The notes beneath the pieces were generated by a model. That model did no database searches. It had not been told where the DNA came from and worked only from the letters and a program-made list of their open reading frames with translations. Below are positions 5,844 to 22,395 of a DNA stretch of 24,868 bases, in pieces. Each line of letters starts with the position of its first letter. The first letter of the stretch is position 1. Source of the stretch: a virus; IMG/VR virus record IMGVR_UViG_3300030329_000158, positions 1 to 24,868 of that record, one strand, 5' to 3'. Position numbers and translations under genes: made by a program.

Positions 5844-7544
5844 ATGTCAAAGGTAATTGAAAGAGAGCAATGTCCTGCCTGTGCTAGTCGTGGGCAGGAC
5901 AACTCTCGTGATAACTTAGCCGTCTATGATGACGGTCACAAGTATTGTTATGCTTGTGAGTATAGAGAAAGCGGTAAAGGAGAAGTTGTAGTGCCAGTGG
6001 TAACAGACACATCAGATGTAAAGTTCTATAAGGGTACGATTGTTTCCAACCGAGGTATTAATGAGAAGACTATGCGTATGTACGGATACGAATGTGTTAA
6101 ACAAGGTGATAAGAAAGCAGAGATTGCATCCTTTCACAACAACGGACGCATAGTAGCACAACATCTTAGGGGTCCTAACAAAACCTTTAGATGGTTGGGT
6201 GATACTTCTAACATATCTCTTTGGGGTCAACACTTATGGAAGAGTGGTAACGGCAAACGATTAGTAATCACAGAAGGTGAGTATGATTGTATGACTGTTG
6301 CTCAATTATTTAATTTAAAATGGGCTGTAGTTAGTTTACCTAACGGTGCAGCTGGAGCTGTCAAAGCAATCAAAGATAACCTAGAGTTTGTAAGTGGGTA
6401 TGAAGAGATTGTATTGATGTTCGATAACGATGAACCTGGCAAGAGTGCAGCTCAAGCAGTAGCTGAGATCTTACCACCAGGTAAGTGTAAGATCGCAACC
6501 TTACCCCATAAGGATGCAAACGAATGTCTAATGAATAATGATTCCCAAGCAGTAATCAATGCTGTGTGGGAAGCACAACGATTTAGTCCCGATGAAATCT
6601 TACACATCTCTAATGTATGTGAGTCACCTGACTTATCACAGACTAAGGTGTTCCCCTTCCCCTTTGATTCTCTTACCGAATACTTGGTAGGACAAAGGTC
6701 AGGAGAGATTACACTATGGGCATCAGGTACAGGCTCAGGTAAGACTACTATTGTTCGTGAGTTAATTCATCACCACCTAGTTGAAGGTAGATCTGTAGGT
6801 GCTATCATGTTAGAAGAATCTCCACAAGAAACTATGGATGATATGATATCTCTCATGATCAATAAACCTGTACGGGTTATCCGTGCATCAAGAATGATGA
6901 ATAATCTACGTGATTCATTGGGACAAGATCCTATTGATATACAAGTAATCGATGACTTAACCGATGATGAATATGCTGAGGCTAGGGAAAAGCTTAACGA
7001 CACTAGCTTATATATCTATGACCATCTAGGAAACAACGGCTTAAAGAACTTGTGTTCTCGTATTGAATACATGGCTGTATCCCTAGGTGTAGAAGTAATC
7101 GTGTTAGATCATATCACAGCTGCAGCTACTGGGCTAATGTCTGGTGACTCTGACTATGATAACTCTAATGAACGATTGCTTATTGATAGCATAATGAAAG
7201 AACTACGAGGTTTAGTCAGTAGAACTGGAGTAAGGATAGACGTAATCTCACAACTCAAGAAGACTAATAAAGCATACGAAGAAGGGGATCGCATCACGCT
7301 ACAAGACTTGCGTGGTTCTGGTTCACTATCTTCTGTGCCTAATACAGTCATTGGTCTTGAACGTGACAGACAGAATCCTGATGACAAGATAGCTAACACT
7401 ACAGTCATACGTGTTCTAAAGAATAGACTAACTGGTAAGGCTGGGGTTGCTACGTGCTTATTCTACAATCATAAGACTGGTAGATTAGAGGAACTTAACT
7501 GGGCTCAGGATGCTGAAGGTCAGTTAATGTTTGATCCAGTATGA
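5844..7544 (+). CDS. Primase/helicase, T7 gp4-like
   Basis: At 566 residues it matches the length of T7 gp4A. Domains in order: N-terminal zinc ribbon (Cys10, Cys13, Cys35, Cys38), which reads the priming site; Toprim primase core with ITEGEYD (Glu144) and FDNDEPG (Asp194, Asp196); linker; then a RecA-like hexameric helicase with Walker A ASGTGSGKTT (Lys300), Walker B VIVLDH (Asp422), the DLRGSGSLSS motif (about 488-497) and KNRLTGKAG with the arginine-finger region near 528. It should unwind DNA and make primers at the fork. Both halves are intact. It follows the small membrane gene by five bases and overlaps the sulfotransferase-like gene by ATGA. Confidence 0.97.
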   Translation: MSKVIEREQCPACASRGQDNSRDNLAVYDDGHKYCYACEYRESGKGEVVVPVVTDTSDVKFYKGTIVSNRGINEKTMRMYGYECVKQGDKKAEIASFHNNGRIVAQHLRGPNKTFRWLGDTSNISLWGQHLWKSGNGKRLVITEGEYDCMTVAQLFNLKWAVVSLPNGAAGAVKAIKDNLEFVSGYEEIVLMFDNDEPGKSAAQAVAEILPPGKCKIATLPHKDANECLMNNDSQAVINAVWEAQRFSPDEILHISNVCESPDLSQTKVFPFPFDSLTEYLVGQRSGEITLWASGTGSGKTTIVRELIHHHLVEGRSVGAIMLEESPQETMDDMISLMINKPVRVIRASRMMNNLRDSLGQDPIDIQVIDDLTDDEYAEAREKLNDTSLYIYDHLGNNGLKNLCSRIEYMAVSLGVEVIVLDHITAAATGLMSGDSDYDNSNERLLIDSIMKELRGLVSRTGVRIDVISQLKKTNKAYEEGDRITLQDLRGSGSLSSVPNTVIGLERDRQNPDDKIANTTVIRVLKNRLTGKAGVATCLFYNHKTGRLEELNWAQDAEGQLMFDPV

Positions 7545-8134
7545 TAGTGGTAACAGGAGCATGTAGATCTGGTTCTAGTCTAATGATGCAGACTCTTCAG
7601 CTATTGGGTATACCTTTAGCTGGAGAGGCTCATCATCCTGACTTCCCGGTCAAAGAAGGAAATCCAAAGGGTTACTATGATATGCCCTTTTATAATTTAA
7701 TGACAGGGTTCGGTGATTTTTATAAAGGTAAAGCGGTTAAGCTATTCGGAACAGCACTACCCAAGATTAAGACACCTAGTAATGTAACAGGTGCTATTGT
7801 ATGTGTGCGTAGAGATATCGAAGAACAGGATAAGAGCACAAGAAGATTGTTGAATCTTGAAATTGAGTACAAGAGTGAGTGTGATTCACCAGTACGAAAG
7901 ATGGTGATAGAACATGTAGAGAAAATGACTGATGCAGATATCTCAAAGGTTCGTAGAAGAACTTATAGACAAACCTATGAGTATCTAGAACATCATAACA
8001 TACCTTATATTAAGGTTGCTTATGAAGATATGTTATACAAAACAAAGTCTACTATTGAAACAGTTACTGAATTTCTAAAGCTATCCCCTAATAAACAGAA
8101 ACTTTTAGATGCAGAGGAGAACGTGGATGTATGA
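7541..8134 (+). CDS. Sulfotransferase-like P-loop protein
   Basis: This 197-residue protein starts MIVVTGACRSGSSLMMQTL, matching the 5'-phosphosulfate loop of bacterial sulfotransferases (RSGTS followed by a helix). LGIPLAGE and EGNPKGYYD near 24-48 match the usual LG...NPKGYWE stretch, and VCVRRD near 87-92 fits the 3'-phosphate-binding region. If active it would move sulfate from PAPS to an unknown acceptor; a kinase-like role for the P-loop is the alternative. It is joined by ATGA overlaps on both sides, between helicase and DNA polymerase, so it is made together with the replisome. T7 has no counterpart. Family call moderate, substrate unknown. Confidence 0.7.
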   Translation: MIVVTGACRSGSSLMMQTLQLLGIPLAGEAHHPDFPVKEGNPKGYYDMPFYNLMTGFGDFYKGKAVKLFGTALPKIKTPSNVTGAIVCVRRDIEEQDKSTRRLLNLEIEYKSECDSPVRKMVIEHVEKMTDADISKVRRRTYRQTYEYLEHHNIPYIKVAYEDMLYKTKSTIETVTEFLKLSPNKQKLLDAEENVDV

Positions 8135-15728: not shown

Positions 15729-17371
15729 AAGAGAATACAATAAGAGAAAGATACGAGAAGCTTGATTCTAAGCGTACATCTAAACTAGAACGTGCAAGAT
15801 ATTGTGCTTCACTTTCGGTACCAAGTTTGTTACCTCCTAGTGGATGGACAGAAGAATCATCATTACCTCAACCTTTTAGTTCTGTTACTGCCCGTGGTGT
15901 TACAGCTATGGCTAGTCGAATGCTTAGTGCATTGCTTCCTCTTAATGATATGCCTTTCTTTAAGTTTGAATTGAACACAGGACTTGATCCTGATGATGAG
16001 ATTCGTGTTTACTTAGAGTCATTAAGCTATCAAGTATACAATAAACTATCATCCAAGAATCTTAGGGAAACTTTATATCAAGTACTTCAACATCTAATTG
16101 TTGTTGGTGATGTGTTACTTATTATGGAAGATGATTACTCCTATAGATTAATTCGTCTTGACCAGTTTGTAGTCCGACGTGATGTAAATGGAGAACCTAA
16201 AGAGATTATTCATTTAGATTTTGTAGCTAATAATAATAATGGTGACTTAGCTGATCATCTATATCACGATAGTACGGAGTATAATCGCACAGGATATGAA
16301 ACTATTTACTGCCGTTGTTGGAAAGACGAAGAGTCTGGTGTCTGGAAATGTCGTAAAGAAGATAATGACGGTAATCTTGTAGATGAAGGTGAGTGGTCTG
16401 TTAGTCCTTACGTCTGTCTTAGATGGGCAGGAGTGGCTGGAGAAAACTATGGTCGATCACACTGTGAAGATTTAATTGGTGATATCAAATCACTTGAAGC
16501 CTTTACTGAAGGTTTAATCTATGGTACTGCAGCAGCTACATCCTTCTGGGTGGGCATTGATCCTGCGGGTATCACAGAAATAGATGACATTCATGATGCT
16601 CACAAGGGTGCGTTTGTTCCTGCAAGACAGCAAGATGTGTTTACTATATCACCAGCTGCTACTATGACACCACAGCTACAGGCTACACAAGCAGGTGTAG
16701 AATCTATGCGTCGAGAGATAGGACAAGCGTTCTTACTTAACTCCGCTAGTATCCCTGAAGGTGAGCGTGTTACAGCTACAGCTGTTCGGGCTATTGGACA
16801 AGAACTAGAGAACGTATTAGGTGGGGCATTCTCATCTATTGCTCGAAGTTTAATGAAACCTATTGTTTCACGTGCTATCTACATGATGTTAGATGATCGT
16901 GAAATAGATCCTCGTATGGAAGCTGAGTTTACAGAAGATGGAGAACTCACTGTTGAAATCGTTACAGGTCTACAAGCTCTATCAAGAGATGCTGATCTTA
17001 CTAAACTCATGCAGATGGGTGAGATGGTACGTAACTTACCTGAGCCAGCGGTTGCTAACTTTAAGTGGGAATCCTATGGTCGGGCTCTAATTTCATCACT
17101 TGGGTTTAATCCAGACAACTGGATCAAATCAGCTGAGGCACTTAAACAAGAACAGATGATACAACAGCAGGAAGAGATGGCTATGCAGCAACAGATGATG
17201 CAACAACAAGGCAATGCTGAGTTAATTCAACAGGCAACTGCACAAGAATTACAACAAGCAGGTGGTCAAGGTGTTCAAGAACTTCTGGAGAATGTAGAGG
17301 CTGGTAGTCCAGTCCCTCAAGAAGCTGATGCTTTACCTCCTGAGATAGCACAGATGATGGGAGGTATGTAA
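15725..17371 (+). CDS. Portal (head-to-tail connector) protein, T7 gp8-like
   Basis: This 548-residue protein (T7 gp8 has 536) forms the dodecameric ring at the capsid vertex through which DNA is packaged and ejected. The N-terminus RERYEKLDSKRTSKLERARYCASLSVPSLLPP is typical of the family, followed by GVTAMASRMLSALLP, QVLQHLIVVGDVLLI near 115, YGRSHCEDLIGDIKSLE near 240 and RVTATAVRAIGQELENVLGGAFS near 345-368 (the clip/stem region). The tail (about 475-520) is rich in Gln and Met. ATGA couples it to the coiled-coil gene and TAATG to the next. The following cassette separates it from the scaffold gene, which T7 places directly after. Confidence 0.95.
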   Translation: MKENTIRERYEKLDSKRTSKLERARYCASLSVPSLLPPSGWTEESSLPQPFSSVTARGVTAMASRMLSALLPLNDMPFFKFELNTGLDPDDEIRVYLESLSYQVYNKLSSKNLRETLYQVLQHLIVVGDVLLIMEDDYSYRLIRLDQFVVRRDVNGEPKEIIHLDFVANNNNGDLADHLYHDSTEYNRTGYETIYCRCWKDEESGVWKCRKEDNDGNLVDEGEWSVSPYVCLRWAGVAGENYGRSHCEDLIGDIKSLEAFTEGLIYGTAAATSFWVGIDPAGITEIDDIHDAHKGAFVPARQQDVFTISPAATMTPQLQATQAGVESMRREIGQAFLLNSASIPEGERVTATAVRAIGQELENVLGGAFSSIARSLMKPIVSRAIYMMLDDREIDPRMEAEFTEDGELTVEIVTGLQALSRDADLTKLMQMGEMVRNLPEPAVANFKWESYGRALISSLGFNPDNWIKSAEALKQEQMIQQQEEMAMQQQMMQQQGNAELIQQATAQELQQAGGQGVQELLENVEAGSPVPQEADALPPEIAQMMGGM

Positions 17372-17964
17372 TGACATATACACAAGTACTTAAAACAGGA
17401 GTTGTTACTAGCGGTAAAGGCGGTATCAGTGGTGGTGGATTCTCAATTACTCCTGATGGTAGTTCTGAAGGTGGTGGCGGACCTGATACTGGTGAATCAG
17501 ATGACTTTACTTATGTTACGATTACAGACACAAATACATTTGGATCAAGTGATTTAGGTTCTAGTGCTATACCTGTCTTCGATCTCCCTACTACTGTAGA
17601 TATTTCACAGAATAAAGGAATGTTATGGACTATCGAGACTGTAACCAAACTATCGTCAGATCCAGGAACAGTACCTGTATTTCTAGAGGTAAGTCATGAT
17701 GGTACAAACTGGTCTAGTTACACAGACTCTGCAACTACTCATAAAATTACTGTACTTGCAGACTTAGATTTAACTAGACCTGATGGTACTGTTGAAGTCC
17801 TCTGGGTAAATACAGAAGATATGAGATTTCCACAATATCGATTTGGTTTTAATTCAGGTGGAGTAAATCTTGATGGATATGCGTTTAAATTGGGATATAC
17901 CTTTGTAGATAAATGGGTAGATCCTGCTAAATATAGGAAATGGCTTACGAAGCCTGGAGAATAG
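17371..17964 (+). CDS. Beta-rich putative virion protein, paralogue A
   Basis: This 197-residue protein begins by TAATG overlap with the portal gene. The N-terminal 45 residues are Gly/Ser-rich and flexible. The rest is a beta-rich domain with FLEVSHDGTNWSSY (104-117) and YRFGFNSGGVNLDG (156-169). The next gene has the same two blocks at matching spacing (FMEVSADGTNFS and FRIGINSAGLNLGSG), so the two are tandem paralogues. The Gly-rich arm and a C-terminal extension of about 22 residues distinguish this copy. The EVS-DGTNW pattern is common in phage appendage proteins. Decoration protein or head fibre is the best guess. Confidence 0.65.
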   Translation: MTYTQVLKTGVVTSGKGGISGGGFSITPDGSSEGGGGPDTGESDDFTYVTITDTNTFGSSDLGSSAIPVFDLPTTVDISQNKGMLWTIETVTKLSSDPGTVPVFLEVSHDGTNWSSYTDSATTHKITVLADLDLTRPDGTVEVLWVNTEDMRFPQYRFGFNSGGVNLDGYAFKLGYTFVDKWVDPAKYRKWLTKPGE

Positions 17965-17973
17965 GAGTAGTTT

Positions 17974-18426
17974 ATGGCACACAGTGCGTATGAAGTATTG
18001 AATAAAGCGTGGACTACTACTACCACGTCTAATGGTAAATGGAAATATCGAACACTTGGGCAGTCTGATGGTAGTCATACGACAAACACATTAGTTACTC
18101 CTGCTATTGATAGTACAGCAAAGCTAAGCGGTAACAAGATATTAGTCTATCTTGTAATTAATGCAGTCGCCTCTGATGTTGCTGCTGATATGTTCATGGA
18201 GGTTAGTGCTGATGGTACTAATTTTTCTGCACATCATGGAACAGGAACAAACTATATAACAGTGTCTAGTGATATCGAACCAAACTCTGGTACTGTTACT
18301 AAGGTGTATATGGTAGATCTTACCTCTTATACTGTACCTTATTTCCGAATAGGAATTAATTCTGCTGGTCTCAACTTAGGTTCCGGCTTTAAATGTCAAT
18401 TAGGATTTGCATATCCAGTAACTTAA
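17974..18426 (+). CDS. Beta-rich putative virion protein, paralogue B
   Basis: This 150-residue protein has AGGAG upstream of the ATG. Beta-rich throughout, it carries FMEVSADGTNFS (74-85) and YFRIGINSAGLNLGSG (123-138) in common with the preceding gene. It lacks that gene's Gly-rich N-terminal arm and C-terminal extension, so it is the minimal form of the domain. No signal peptide or catalytic motif is present. It is probably a virion surface subunit; the role is inferred from its place between portal and scaffold. Confidence 0.65.
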   Translation: MAHSAYEVLNKAWTTTTTSNGKWKYRTLGQSDGSHTTNTLVTPAIDSTAKLSGNKILVYLVINAVASDVAADMFMEVSADGTNFSAHHGTGTNYITVSSDIEPNSGTVTKVYMVDLTSYTVPYFRIGINSAGLNLGSGFKCQLGFAYPVT

Positions 18427-18436
18427 GGGAGATACA

Positions 18437-18718
18437 ATGGCGAAATATACTAAGGCTGCAGCGGTCACAGCTCATGATTCAACTGACCAATCTATAGATA
18501 CTATAAACGGTACAGCAATAGATGCTATCTATATAGGTGGTGCAGGTAATGTACATATGCAGCTTAGTGGTGACTCTTCAGCTGTATTGTTCAAGAATAT
18601 GCTTGCAGGTACTATTTATCCTTTATCTGCAAAACTTATCAAGGCAAGTGCCAGTACTGCCAATGAAACAACAGCTACAGATATCGTAGCATTAGATACT
18701 GGCAAAAGATATGTCTAA
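18437..18718 (+). CDS. Small beta-rich protein, minimal form of the split domain
   Basis: This 93-residue protein is preceded by GGGAG. It starts AKYTKAAAVTAHDSTD and contains IDAIYIGGAGNVHMQLSGDSS, then AGTIYPLSAKLIKASAS and TATDIVALDTGK. The next gene has the same opening (KKFTQAYSITPHDS, DAYYVGSGNF) and closing (VGQIIHESPTIIRNSG, ASDIVGLKE) with a large domain between, so this is the uninterrupted version. It is probably a small beta-sandwich on the virion. Its stop overlaps the next start. Confidence 0.7.
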   Translation: MAKYTKAAAVTAHDSTDQSIDTINGTAIDAIYIGGAGNVHMQLSGDSSAVLFKNMLAGTIYPLSAKLIKASASTANETTATDIVALDTGKRYV

Positions 18719-19679
18719 GAAGTTTACTCAAGCATATTCGATTACACCACATGATTCGAACGAAATCGATCCTCGTCCGGATGCATATTATGTAGGTAGT
18801 GGAAACTTTACTGATGATCACGATTCATGGGATACCCCTAAGATACACTTAAGAGGTGGAGTAGGGATGACATCGTTAAGTGGTAATATGACTGCCTGGG
18901 CTCATGCTGATGGAGATAGAAGTTCTTTACAGCCTGATAGCATGGGTGATATATCTTTAGTAACAGGTACTGCAGAAACAAATATGGTAAACTATGTTCA
19001 CTTTACTGCTGCTACTTCTTTTATGCAAATAGATGACCATGCCGATTTCAATATAGGTACTAGTGACTTTGAAATGATGGCTGTTGTTCGGTTTGAGGAT
19101 AATGGTAATGCATATCAACATATAGCAGCTAGAGATAAGGGAAACAATAACTGGTCATGGCTAAGAGTATCCGGTGCTCATGCCGATGCAGGTAAGATTA
19201 AATTTTCTCTTGATGGTACAGATCCTAAATCAGATACAGCAGTGCCTTTAGATACTTGGGTTATTTTAGGTGTAAGGCGTTACAATGATGATATAATGCT
19301 ATACCGAAACGGAGTAGACGACATGAGTTCTGCTGTTACTAACGCTGCTGATTTAGATGATGATGATGATGATCACTTTATGATCGGCTGTATACATAAT
19401 GGAAGCGACCACGTTCAATCTTTACAAGGAGATATGGCAGAGTTTATATTTTGGGAAAAAAGTTTAAGTGCTAGTGATAGGGCTACATTTGTTCAAAGAT
19501 TACAAGATAGATACTTTAATCCACAAAGAGCTAAGATGATTACTTGTACAGATCCTTCTGATGCAGGTACTTATATTATAAAGTATCCTCAAGTGGGTCA
19601 AATTATTCATGAGAGTCCTACCATTATACGAAATAGTGGTACAGGGGCATCAGATATCGTAGGTTTAAAGGAGCAGTAA
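18711..19679 (+). CDS. Putative adhesin/decoration protein with LamG-like insert
   Basis: In this 322-residue protein, residues 1-33 and about 275-322 correspond to the two halves of the 93-residue protein before it. Between them, about 90-270, lies a concanavalin-A/LamG-like jelly-roll pattern: FTAATSFMQIDDHADFNIG, FEMMAVVRFED, WSWLRVS, KIKFSLDG, TWVILGVRRYNDDIMLYRNG, DHFMIGCIHNG and GDMAEFIFWEKSLSASDRATFVQRL. LamG folds often bind carbohydrate, which suggests adhesion to host glycans or particles. A run of six Asp (about 205-211) falls in a loop. There is no clear SD, so it is probably coupled to the preceding gene, which it overlaps by eight bases. Confidence 0.7.
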   Translation: MSKKFTQAYSITPHDSNEIDPRPDAYYVGSGNFTDDHDSWDTPKIHLRGGVGMTSLSGNMTAWAHADGDRSSLQPDSMGDISLVTGTAETNMVNYVHFTAATSFMQIDDHADFNIGTSDFEMMAVVRFEDNGNAYQHIAARDKGNNNWSWLRVSGAHADAGKIKFSLDGTDPKSDTAVPLDTWVILGVRRYNDDIMLYRNGVDDMSSAVTNAADLDDDDDDHFMIGCIHNGSDHVQSLQGDMAEFIFWEKSLSASDRATFVQRLQDRYFNPQRAKMITCTDPSDAGTYIIKYPQVGQIIHESPTIIRNSGTGASDIVGLKEQ

Positions 19680-19680
19680 C

Positions 19681-19917
19681 ATGTCACCACAAGATCCATG
19701 GGAAACACACAACGGAGGTACTAACGGCTGGGCAGAATATAAACGACTAGTAATTAATGAGCTTGAGCGAGCTAATCACAGGCTAGATATGATGGATAAA
19801 CGGTTAGGCAGAATGGAAAAACATATTACAATATTGCAAACTAAAGCAGCTGCTTGGGCAGCAGGGTTAGCAATAACAATTTCTGGAGGGATGACCCTCC
19901 TCTTCAAATTCTTTTGA
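19681..19917 (+). CDS. Coiled-coil plus membrane-anchor protein, holin-like
   Basis: In this 78-residue protein, residues 19-52 form an amphipathic helix (EYKRLVINELERANHRLDMMDKRLGRMEKHI) with coiled-coil spacing. Residues 54-78 form a C-terminal membrane segment (AAAWAAGLAITISGGMTLLFKFF). The layout matches XhlA/holin-type phage proteins from Gram-negative and Gram-positive phages. It might be a holin or membrane anchor; no endolysin is recognised nearby, so the role is open. AAGGAG precedes the ATG. A GC hairpin lies in its last codons. Confidence 0.65.
   Translation: MSPQDPWETHNGGTNGWAEYKRLVINELERANHRLDMMDKRLGRMEKHITILQTKAAAWAAGLAITISGGMTLLFKFF
19885..19900 (+). other. Perfect GC hairpin at the end of the holin-like gene
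   Basis: GGAGGG (19885-19890), loop ATGA, CCCTCC (19895-19900), then a T-rich but broken tail (TCTTCAAATTCTTTT). It lies inside the coding region just before the scaffold gene. It could be a weak terminator or a processing site that separates scaffold mRNA from the upstream cassette. Confidence 0.45.
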
Positions 19918-21105: not shown

Positions 21106-22395
21106 ATGACAGCAGTCGGTAATTTAGCAGCCAGTCATCTCCCATATAGAGGAGATCTAACTGGACAGCCAAGTTCAGCCAACCCGTATTGGAATGGCTC
21201 TTCCTGGACATCAGCAGCAGCTGCCCAGGGTAAAATGTGGATCCCGATTTGGTCGGGTGAAGTTATTCACGCTTACGATGAATACAATTCGTTCGAACCT
21301 CTAGTAACTAGCAAAACTATTGCTAGTGGTACGACAGCAGAATTCCCAGTCACTGGTACTGTAGACTTGAATCCCGCATGGGAAGCAGGTGAAGAACTAG
21401 TGGGTGGTGCAGAAAGTAAGGCAACAACATTCAAGATTACCTTGGATAAACGCCCTATGGCTGCTCACTTCGAAACTGATAACATCGATATGATGCTTAC
21501 TCAGTGGGAATACCGTTCGGAACTAGCACGTCAAGCAGGTATGACTCTTGCTAACACTAAGGATAAGCAGATCTTTTCAACATTGGTTCGCGCAGCAACT
21601 GCTAGCCAACTTAATGGTGATACTGAAATCCGTGGTGACTTTGGTTTAGAGTCTTTGTTCTATGACGGTGGTGCTTTGAGTACACCAGTTTCTGGTGAAA
21701 GGCGATTGCTTCACTTGGGTGGATCAATCGTAGATGGCATCACTTCTACTCAGGTAGAAATGAACGAAGCTGCTTTGGCTGTTCTAGAATCCATTGAAAA
21801 GTTTATCGTTCACCTTCAAGAGAATGATATTCCTGACCGTGGACTTATGTGTGCCGTGTCACCAAAGGCTTTCATGGATATTCGTGCACTCGGTGTTGCT
21901 CGTGATGACGCAGACTTTGATGGTGGTGGTCGACGACCATACTTCGCAGGTGCTGCCGAAATGGGTGGTCTAGGTGCAGGTCTTGGACAAAGCTTTGGTG
22001 CTATTAATGATAGTTTGAACTACATGGGTTGTACTATCATTAAATCCAACCACGTACTACGTACGAATCAAACCACAGCAACTATGGGTGATTCGAAATA
22101 TGCTTTAGACTTTGGCGATGGTCGAGTTAAAGGTGTAATTTGGATTCCAGACGCTGTTGCAAGCATTAAATTGCAAGGTTTGAAAGTAGATCATGTACAG
22201 GACATTCGACGTAATACACACTTCACAGTTGCATCCATGATGGGTGGAGCTGGTGTACTACGACCAGAATGTTGTGCACTTCTTACGGGTCTTGACAGTA
22301 CTGATAGTTCATCAGATACTCGTACAGATCTCCGTAATGCTACGCACTTGAACTACACTGAAGCTGAATATGTCAGTGATGGTGTAGCTGCATAA
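21106..22395 (+). CDS. Major capsid protein, T7 gp10-like (HK97 fold)
   Basis: This 429-residue protein forms the icosahedral shell. The stretch WSGEVIHAYDEYNSFEPLVTSKTIASG...EFPVTGTVDLNPAWEAGEEL (about 50-100) and the following TFKITLDKRPMAAHFETDNIDMMLTQWEYRSELARQAG resemble the T7/cyanopodovirus capsid N-arm and spine-helix region. It is longer than T7 gp10A (345), with extra Gly-rich sequence near 285-300. AAGGAG lies upstream of the ATG at the end of the structured leader. The gene is followed by a terminator, as in T7. The codon choice looks a little more GC-rich than its neighbours by eye, consistent with high expression. No sign of a T7-type 10A/10B frameshift was seen. Confidence 0.95.
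   Translation: MTAVGNLAASHLPYRGDLTGQPSSANPYWNGSSWTSAAAAQGKMWIPIWSGEVIHAYDEYNSFEPLVTSKTIASGTTAEFPVTGTVDLNPAWEAGEELVGGAESKATTFKITLDKRPMAAHFETDNIDMMLTQWEYRSELARQAGMTLANTKDKQIFSTLVRAATASQLNGDTEIRGDFGLESLFYDGGALSTPVSGERRLLHLGGSIVDGITSTQVEMNEAALAVLESIEKFIVHLQENDIPDRGLMCAVSPKAFMDIRALGVARDDADFDGGGRRPYFAGAAEMGGLGAGLGQSFGAINDSLNYMGCTIIKSNHVLRTNQTTATMGDSKYALDFGDGRVKGVIWIPDAVASIKLQGLKVDHVQDIRRNTHFTVASMMGGAGVLRPECCALLTGLDSTDSSSDTRTDLRNATHLNYTEAEYVSDGVAA

Follow-up and report, generated by a model that had tools for sequence, protein, structure and literature searches.

Among the head spikes that anchor phage-like particles to host polysaccharide, those of the gene transfer agent RcGTA have been described in detail, in which one fibre is carried per five bases and is hooked through an Ile/Leu-Gly N-terminal peptide into the base pentamer (PMC7296036), and in which this fibre binds the capsule (PMC10218006). 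Here, we describe a pair of genes in a fragment of an uncultured, marine-type T7-like podovirus that bears on how such spikes can be built. The window, that is, the whole stretch of DNA analysed, covers the 24,868 bases of its virus record, and the two genes sit between portal and scaffold, outside the tail genes (Table). We propose that their products, P1 and P2, are likely to be two forms, one plain and one adhesin-loaded, of an Rcc01079-family head-spike base. A covalently loaded base next to a plain copy would be a variant of a head-spike base system that is already known.

Table. Features of the window, positions counted from its first base.
Feature	Position	Strand	Basis
Single-subunit RNA polymerase	512		named from ORF translation
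DNA polymerase	8131		named from ORF translation
Portal	15725		ORF translation and tblastn
Putative virion protein pair, 197 and 150 aa, mutually similar, just upstream of P1/P2	17371..18426	+	
P1, plain spike-base protein, 93 aa	18437..18718	+	NF048002, AlphaFold2 model
P1/P2 overlap, 8 bases, P2 start within P1 end	18711..18718	+	
P2, 322 aa, spike-base paralogue loaded with a LamG domain	18711..19679	+	
P2 N-terminal flank, residues 1-32, strands A-B, ending ...YVGSGN	18711..18806	+	
LamG/ConA-like jelly roll and linkers, P2 residues 33-273	18807..19529	+	
Pfam core of insert, P2 residues 109-255	19035-19475	+	PF13385
P2 C-terminal flank, residues 274-322, strands C-G, ending ...ASDIVGLKEQ	19530..19676	+	
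Scaffold	19954		named from ORF translation
Major capsid	21106-22395		named from ORF translation
Tail tubular proteins	from 22471		named from ORF translations

The plain and the split base domain

P1 belongs with Rcc01079 in a curated family of head-spike base proteins. It matches the NCBIfam model NF048002 (spike_base) over profile positions 15-84 of 85 with an E-value of 4.4e-10 and 39.7 bits, above the curated cut-off of 28 bits. The AlphaFold2 model of P1 (pLDDT 80.8) superposes with Z 10.5 and an rmsd of 1.4 Å over 73 residues on Rcc01079 as solved in the RcGTA capsid (6tb9), and with Z 9.9 and 1.5 Å on the spike base of Carin1 (8cjz); the next match, to an unrelated fold, reaches only Z 4.2. 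A single-sequence PDB search returned chance matches only. The alignment with Rcc01079 starts at residue 12 of the latter, P1 and P2 both begin nearly at strand A, and the capsid-binding N-terminal arm of RcGTA type seems to be short or missing in both proteins.

P2 is a P1-type domain opened at the turn after strand 2, where about 240 residues that form a LamG/ConA jelly roll have been inserted. Both open reading frames lie at the positions given with a sequence-only reading of this DNA, which had seen the ends of P1 recur as the flanks of P2 and had proposed that a virion-type domain was duplicated and one copy then opened in a turn by a LamG-like domain; each of these points stands. When P1 is aligned to the joined P2 flanks, taking the best over cut points, the score is 65.5, which none of 300 shuffles of P2 reaches (mean 2.8, SD 9.6, maximum 32.5), and among 299 real phage ORFs of like size scores above 50 come only from P2 itself or its relatives. 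The joined flanks also match small proteins of other phages from end to end (E 1.7e-9 with that of L033). NF048002 itself recognizes two stretches of P2 with an E-value of 3.3e-5 and 24.1 bits, below the cut-off, and P2 is filed as a split paralogue of this family, not as an equivalog. Loaded proteins of several relatives exceed the cut-off (L033 49.4, L032 43.8, L112 37.9, L089 32.8, L093 31.1 and L111 30.5 bits). A profile built from 30 small proteins and no loaded ones finds the two halves of P2 in the proper order, with profile positions 3-35 at residues 2-31 and 48-80 at residues 288-320 (total E 1.3e-7). The same profile covers L089 with positions 1-42 at residues 1-40 and 39-80 at residues 274-316 (30.7 and 30.4 bits, total E 2e-17) and L112 with positions 4-36 at residues 3-32 and 36-80 at residues 286-330 (23.5 and 23.8 bits); it gave no significant match to the divergent loaded member of L056 (11725).

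In the LamG forms the cut falls directly after a Y-V-G-x-G-N turn, between strands 2 and 3. The insert of P2 matches Laminin_G_3 (PF13385) with an E-value of 1.3e-8 and 35.6 bits against a gathering cut-off of 27.6, and the P2 model (pLDDT 82.9, pTM 0.83) resembles ConA-type folds, including carbohydrate-binding modules, with Z 17-20; the arabinan-binding domain of AbnA matches residues 40-265 with Z 20. These matches suggest that the insert is a putative sugar-binding domain, which would probably bind a host surface glycan reversibly. A BFVD structure search returned many LamG proteins, none of them recognizable from the result table as having the split-base architecture.

Recurrence and cargo in related phages

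P1 and P2 as single-protein queries gave no matches among viral contigs; relatives were gathered by a portal search, which yielded 80 related viral loci, and were then searched with profiles. At least 13 contigs of related viruses have the plain and loaded versions side by side, as the sequence-only reading described for the window, and in nearly all of them the two genes overlap, by 1-8 bases. We reject an artefact of assembly or reading frame, since numerous independent contigs show the pair. In a tree of base domains, the plain copies of the T7 group form one branch (support 98/96) with the loaded copies outside it, which marks the duplication as old.

The cargo of the loaded copy varies. 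In L111 the split base encloses a pair of DNRLRE/disaggregatase-type repeats (NCBIfam E 4e-18) and in L151 a single DNRLRE domain (E 7e-12), neither with a LamG domain. L151 gives a two-part match to a joint profile built without it (E 2.8e-5), and its insert position fits hairpin B-C; the insert of L111 may sit in hairpin B-C or C-D. Because L111 and L151 carry DNRLRE domains there, the insertion site is modular, and it seems to serve the virus as a socket for adhesins. In the tree, L111 groups with the LamG-loaded L112, L032 and L033 (89/86), in an alignment whose short rows and sometimes long branches limit how the history of cargo change can be read.

Many other relatives have, in the slot between portal and scaffold, either other genes or a free LamG-like protein of about 330-360 residues with another N-terminal region (L013 10626-11612, L066 12747-13733 and others), and no base domain was found in the searched records of these relatives. 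The free proteins share the N-terminal pattern LDIIG..LR.NKT...GRG..YILS.RNE, a region that is possibly a second, unnamed virion anchor. The varied contents of the slot mark it as a region where adhesin-like modules are exchanged. A glycosyltransferase-like protein occupies the adhesin slot in L153 (5982-6674) and L156 (5973-6659).

The surroundings of the pair hold further features. The 197-aa (17371-17964) and 150-aa (17974-18426) proteins are paralogues (BLASTP 33% identity, E 2e-13) and form a second duplicated, virion-surface-like pair adjoining P1 and P2; most relatives have proteins resembling them at the same place, and the 150-aa protein has a weak match to DUF6385. Just 3' of the adhesin slot, at 19681-19917 in the window and likewise in relatives, lies a gene for a 78-aa protein of phrog_1103 with a predicted coiled coil and C-terminal membrane segment, of XhlA-type look and located among head genes. 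Between helicase and DNA polymerase, the gene at 7541-8134 encodes a sulfotransferase-like N-terminus (VVTGACRSGSSLMMQTLQLLG).

No loaded base was found in 50,697 annotated phage records, where P2 and L151 as queries gave no loaded relative and L112 gave only LamG matches, in cyanomyophages. Likewise, a scan of genome contigs with profile A3 confirmed no loaded base, and none of the papers searched joins head spike, phage and LamG.

A model for the pair and its alternatives

We infer a virion location, assembly into rings, joint rings, a stoichiometry and glycan binding for P1 and P2. By homology, P1 would be a small jelly-roll subunit that forms a five-fold ring on the capsid. P2, a paralogue of old origin, had its B-C hairpin opened for a LamG domain, which fuses the putative adhesin into its anchor; the separate hooked fibre of RcGTA appears to be replaced by a built-in adhesin. 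P1 and P2 share an N-terminal KYTKA motif, and this motif together with the conserved gene overlap suggests that the two proteins are produced jointly and bind to sites of one kind. Coupled translation could provide their joint production, and their rings might be mixed or each of one type. Such spikes would display covalently up to several adhesins each, instead of one. More tentatively, the split base might be a general plug-in site at the capsid vertex, with one hairpin accepting unrelated beta-sandwich adhesins (LamG, DNRLRE) and mixed plain/loaded rings from overlapping genes setting adhesin valency per vertex, an extension that we consider less likely than not.

P2 might instead be a LamG adhesin of the tail or neck whose split base is a generic docking module, with P1 acting as plug or cement and not as the base at a capsid vertex. 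In keeping with such a location, residues 32-269 of the P2 model match, with Z 19.0, a chain whose title is cyanopodophage Pan3 tailspike, some members of the base family are annotated as tail fibre proteins, and P1 and P2 show no evident counterpart of the N-terminal arm by which Rcc01079 contacts the capsid. Moreover, a further plain spike-base copy lies directly after the major capsid gene in L056 (15376-15630) and L118 (2683-2937), making three base paralogues in L056 with its plain and loaded pair; this copy means that the window pair need not be the vertex spike and, combined with the short or missing arm, that the attachment site of P1 and P2 may differ. However, both solved relatives of P1 (6tb9, 8cjz) are capsid-borne, the genes between portal and scaffold are away from the tail genes, and "tail fiber" is a putative database naming. 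We consider a tail or neck location improbable and favor the head-spike base. That the P2 flanks are short P1-like docking peptides that do not fold together as one domain is far less probable still. The N-terminal half of P2 is the clearer one, its C-terminal half scores only 7.2 bits alone, and an hhalign comparison of profiles A3 and A4 aligned the N-terminal part (probability 97.9, E 5e-13) and no other half. Yet both halves are strong, ordered and contiguous on the profile in relatives such as L089 and L112, which secures the assignment of the C-terminal half, and several loaded relatives pass the NF048002 cut-off. In the P2 model, whose C-terminal flank has strands at 276-279, 289-291 and 314-320, each strand of P1 has a counterpart, some very short; the correspondence between the flanks and P1 is one of sequence profiles and of the order of strands.

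The role of the insert can also be read in another way, as a structural spacer or protein-binding decoration and not as a glycan-binding adhesin. LamG and DNRLRE domains do not always bind sugar, and many of the top Foldseek matches come from receptor-binding domains whose LamG-like half is not the known ganglioside site. Other leading matches, on the other hand, are carbohydrate-binding modules, among them CBM40 and domain 4 of AbnA, the latter solved with arabino-oligosaccharide, and the presence of differing cargo at one site fits a receptor-binding role. The analogous RcGTA fibre, moreover, binds capsule (PMC10218006). A spacer or decoration is in our judgment rather unlikely.

Comparison with known head spikes

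The evolutionary part of the sequence-only reading is largely supported; its proposal that the pair may set how many adhesins a virion displays is a hypothesis. Its view of the building block as a virion subunit holds in that a virion-type domain was duplicated, but it did not recognize this block as a head-spike base of the Rcc01079 family. Beyond that reading are the DNRLRE cargo, the conservation of an old pair, and the related phages that hook the same kind of lectin as a separate fibre.

Such a fibre is probably encoded by an isolated phage. In Verrucomicrobia phage P8625 (L172 3962-5964), a plain base gene, gp23, precedes and overlaps by one base a LamG lectin gene, gp24, much as in the window pair; unlike P2, gp24 lacks base-domain flanks and begins MIGLGLDLSL, an N-terminus that makes it a probable RcGTA-like hooked fibre. 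The two proteins are annotated as tail fibre and hypothetical. In L131, the base is likewise followed by a protein with an RcGTA-hook-like start, MIGLSLGLAGG.... A search for the Ile/Leu-Gly hook, with a pattern that misses looser hooks (it missed L143 and L146), found none in the window, itself a fragment, and none at N-termini in relatives of 64 and 70 kb. The free LamG-like proteins of L013, L066 and others carry a LamG domain homologous to that of P2 in the same slot between portal and scaffold, but have the LDIIG...GRG..YILS.R region where P2 has the split base domain.

If the model is correct, the locus represents a second solution to the anchoring of particles on host polysaccharide, with the adhesin within the base, a plain copy adjoining, and cargo that varies at one hairpin. 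The possible number of adhesins per vertex would change, a very small, solved fold would offer a naturally tolerated insertion site, and genes between the portal and scaffold of uncultured T7-like phages gain names. Compared with the Carin1 spike base, which has the same fold as P1 and resides in a phage capsid, P2 differs in its cargo, as the Carin1 chain is a single plain domain without any. Rcc01079 of RcGTA and P1 likewise share both the base fold and the curated family, and in RcGTA the fibre gene, Rcc01080, comes after the base gene by number and name. The RcGTA base displays a polysaccharide-binding protein; whereas base and adhesin are linked non-covalently in RcGTA, the putative adhesin of the window lies within the chain of a second base copy.
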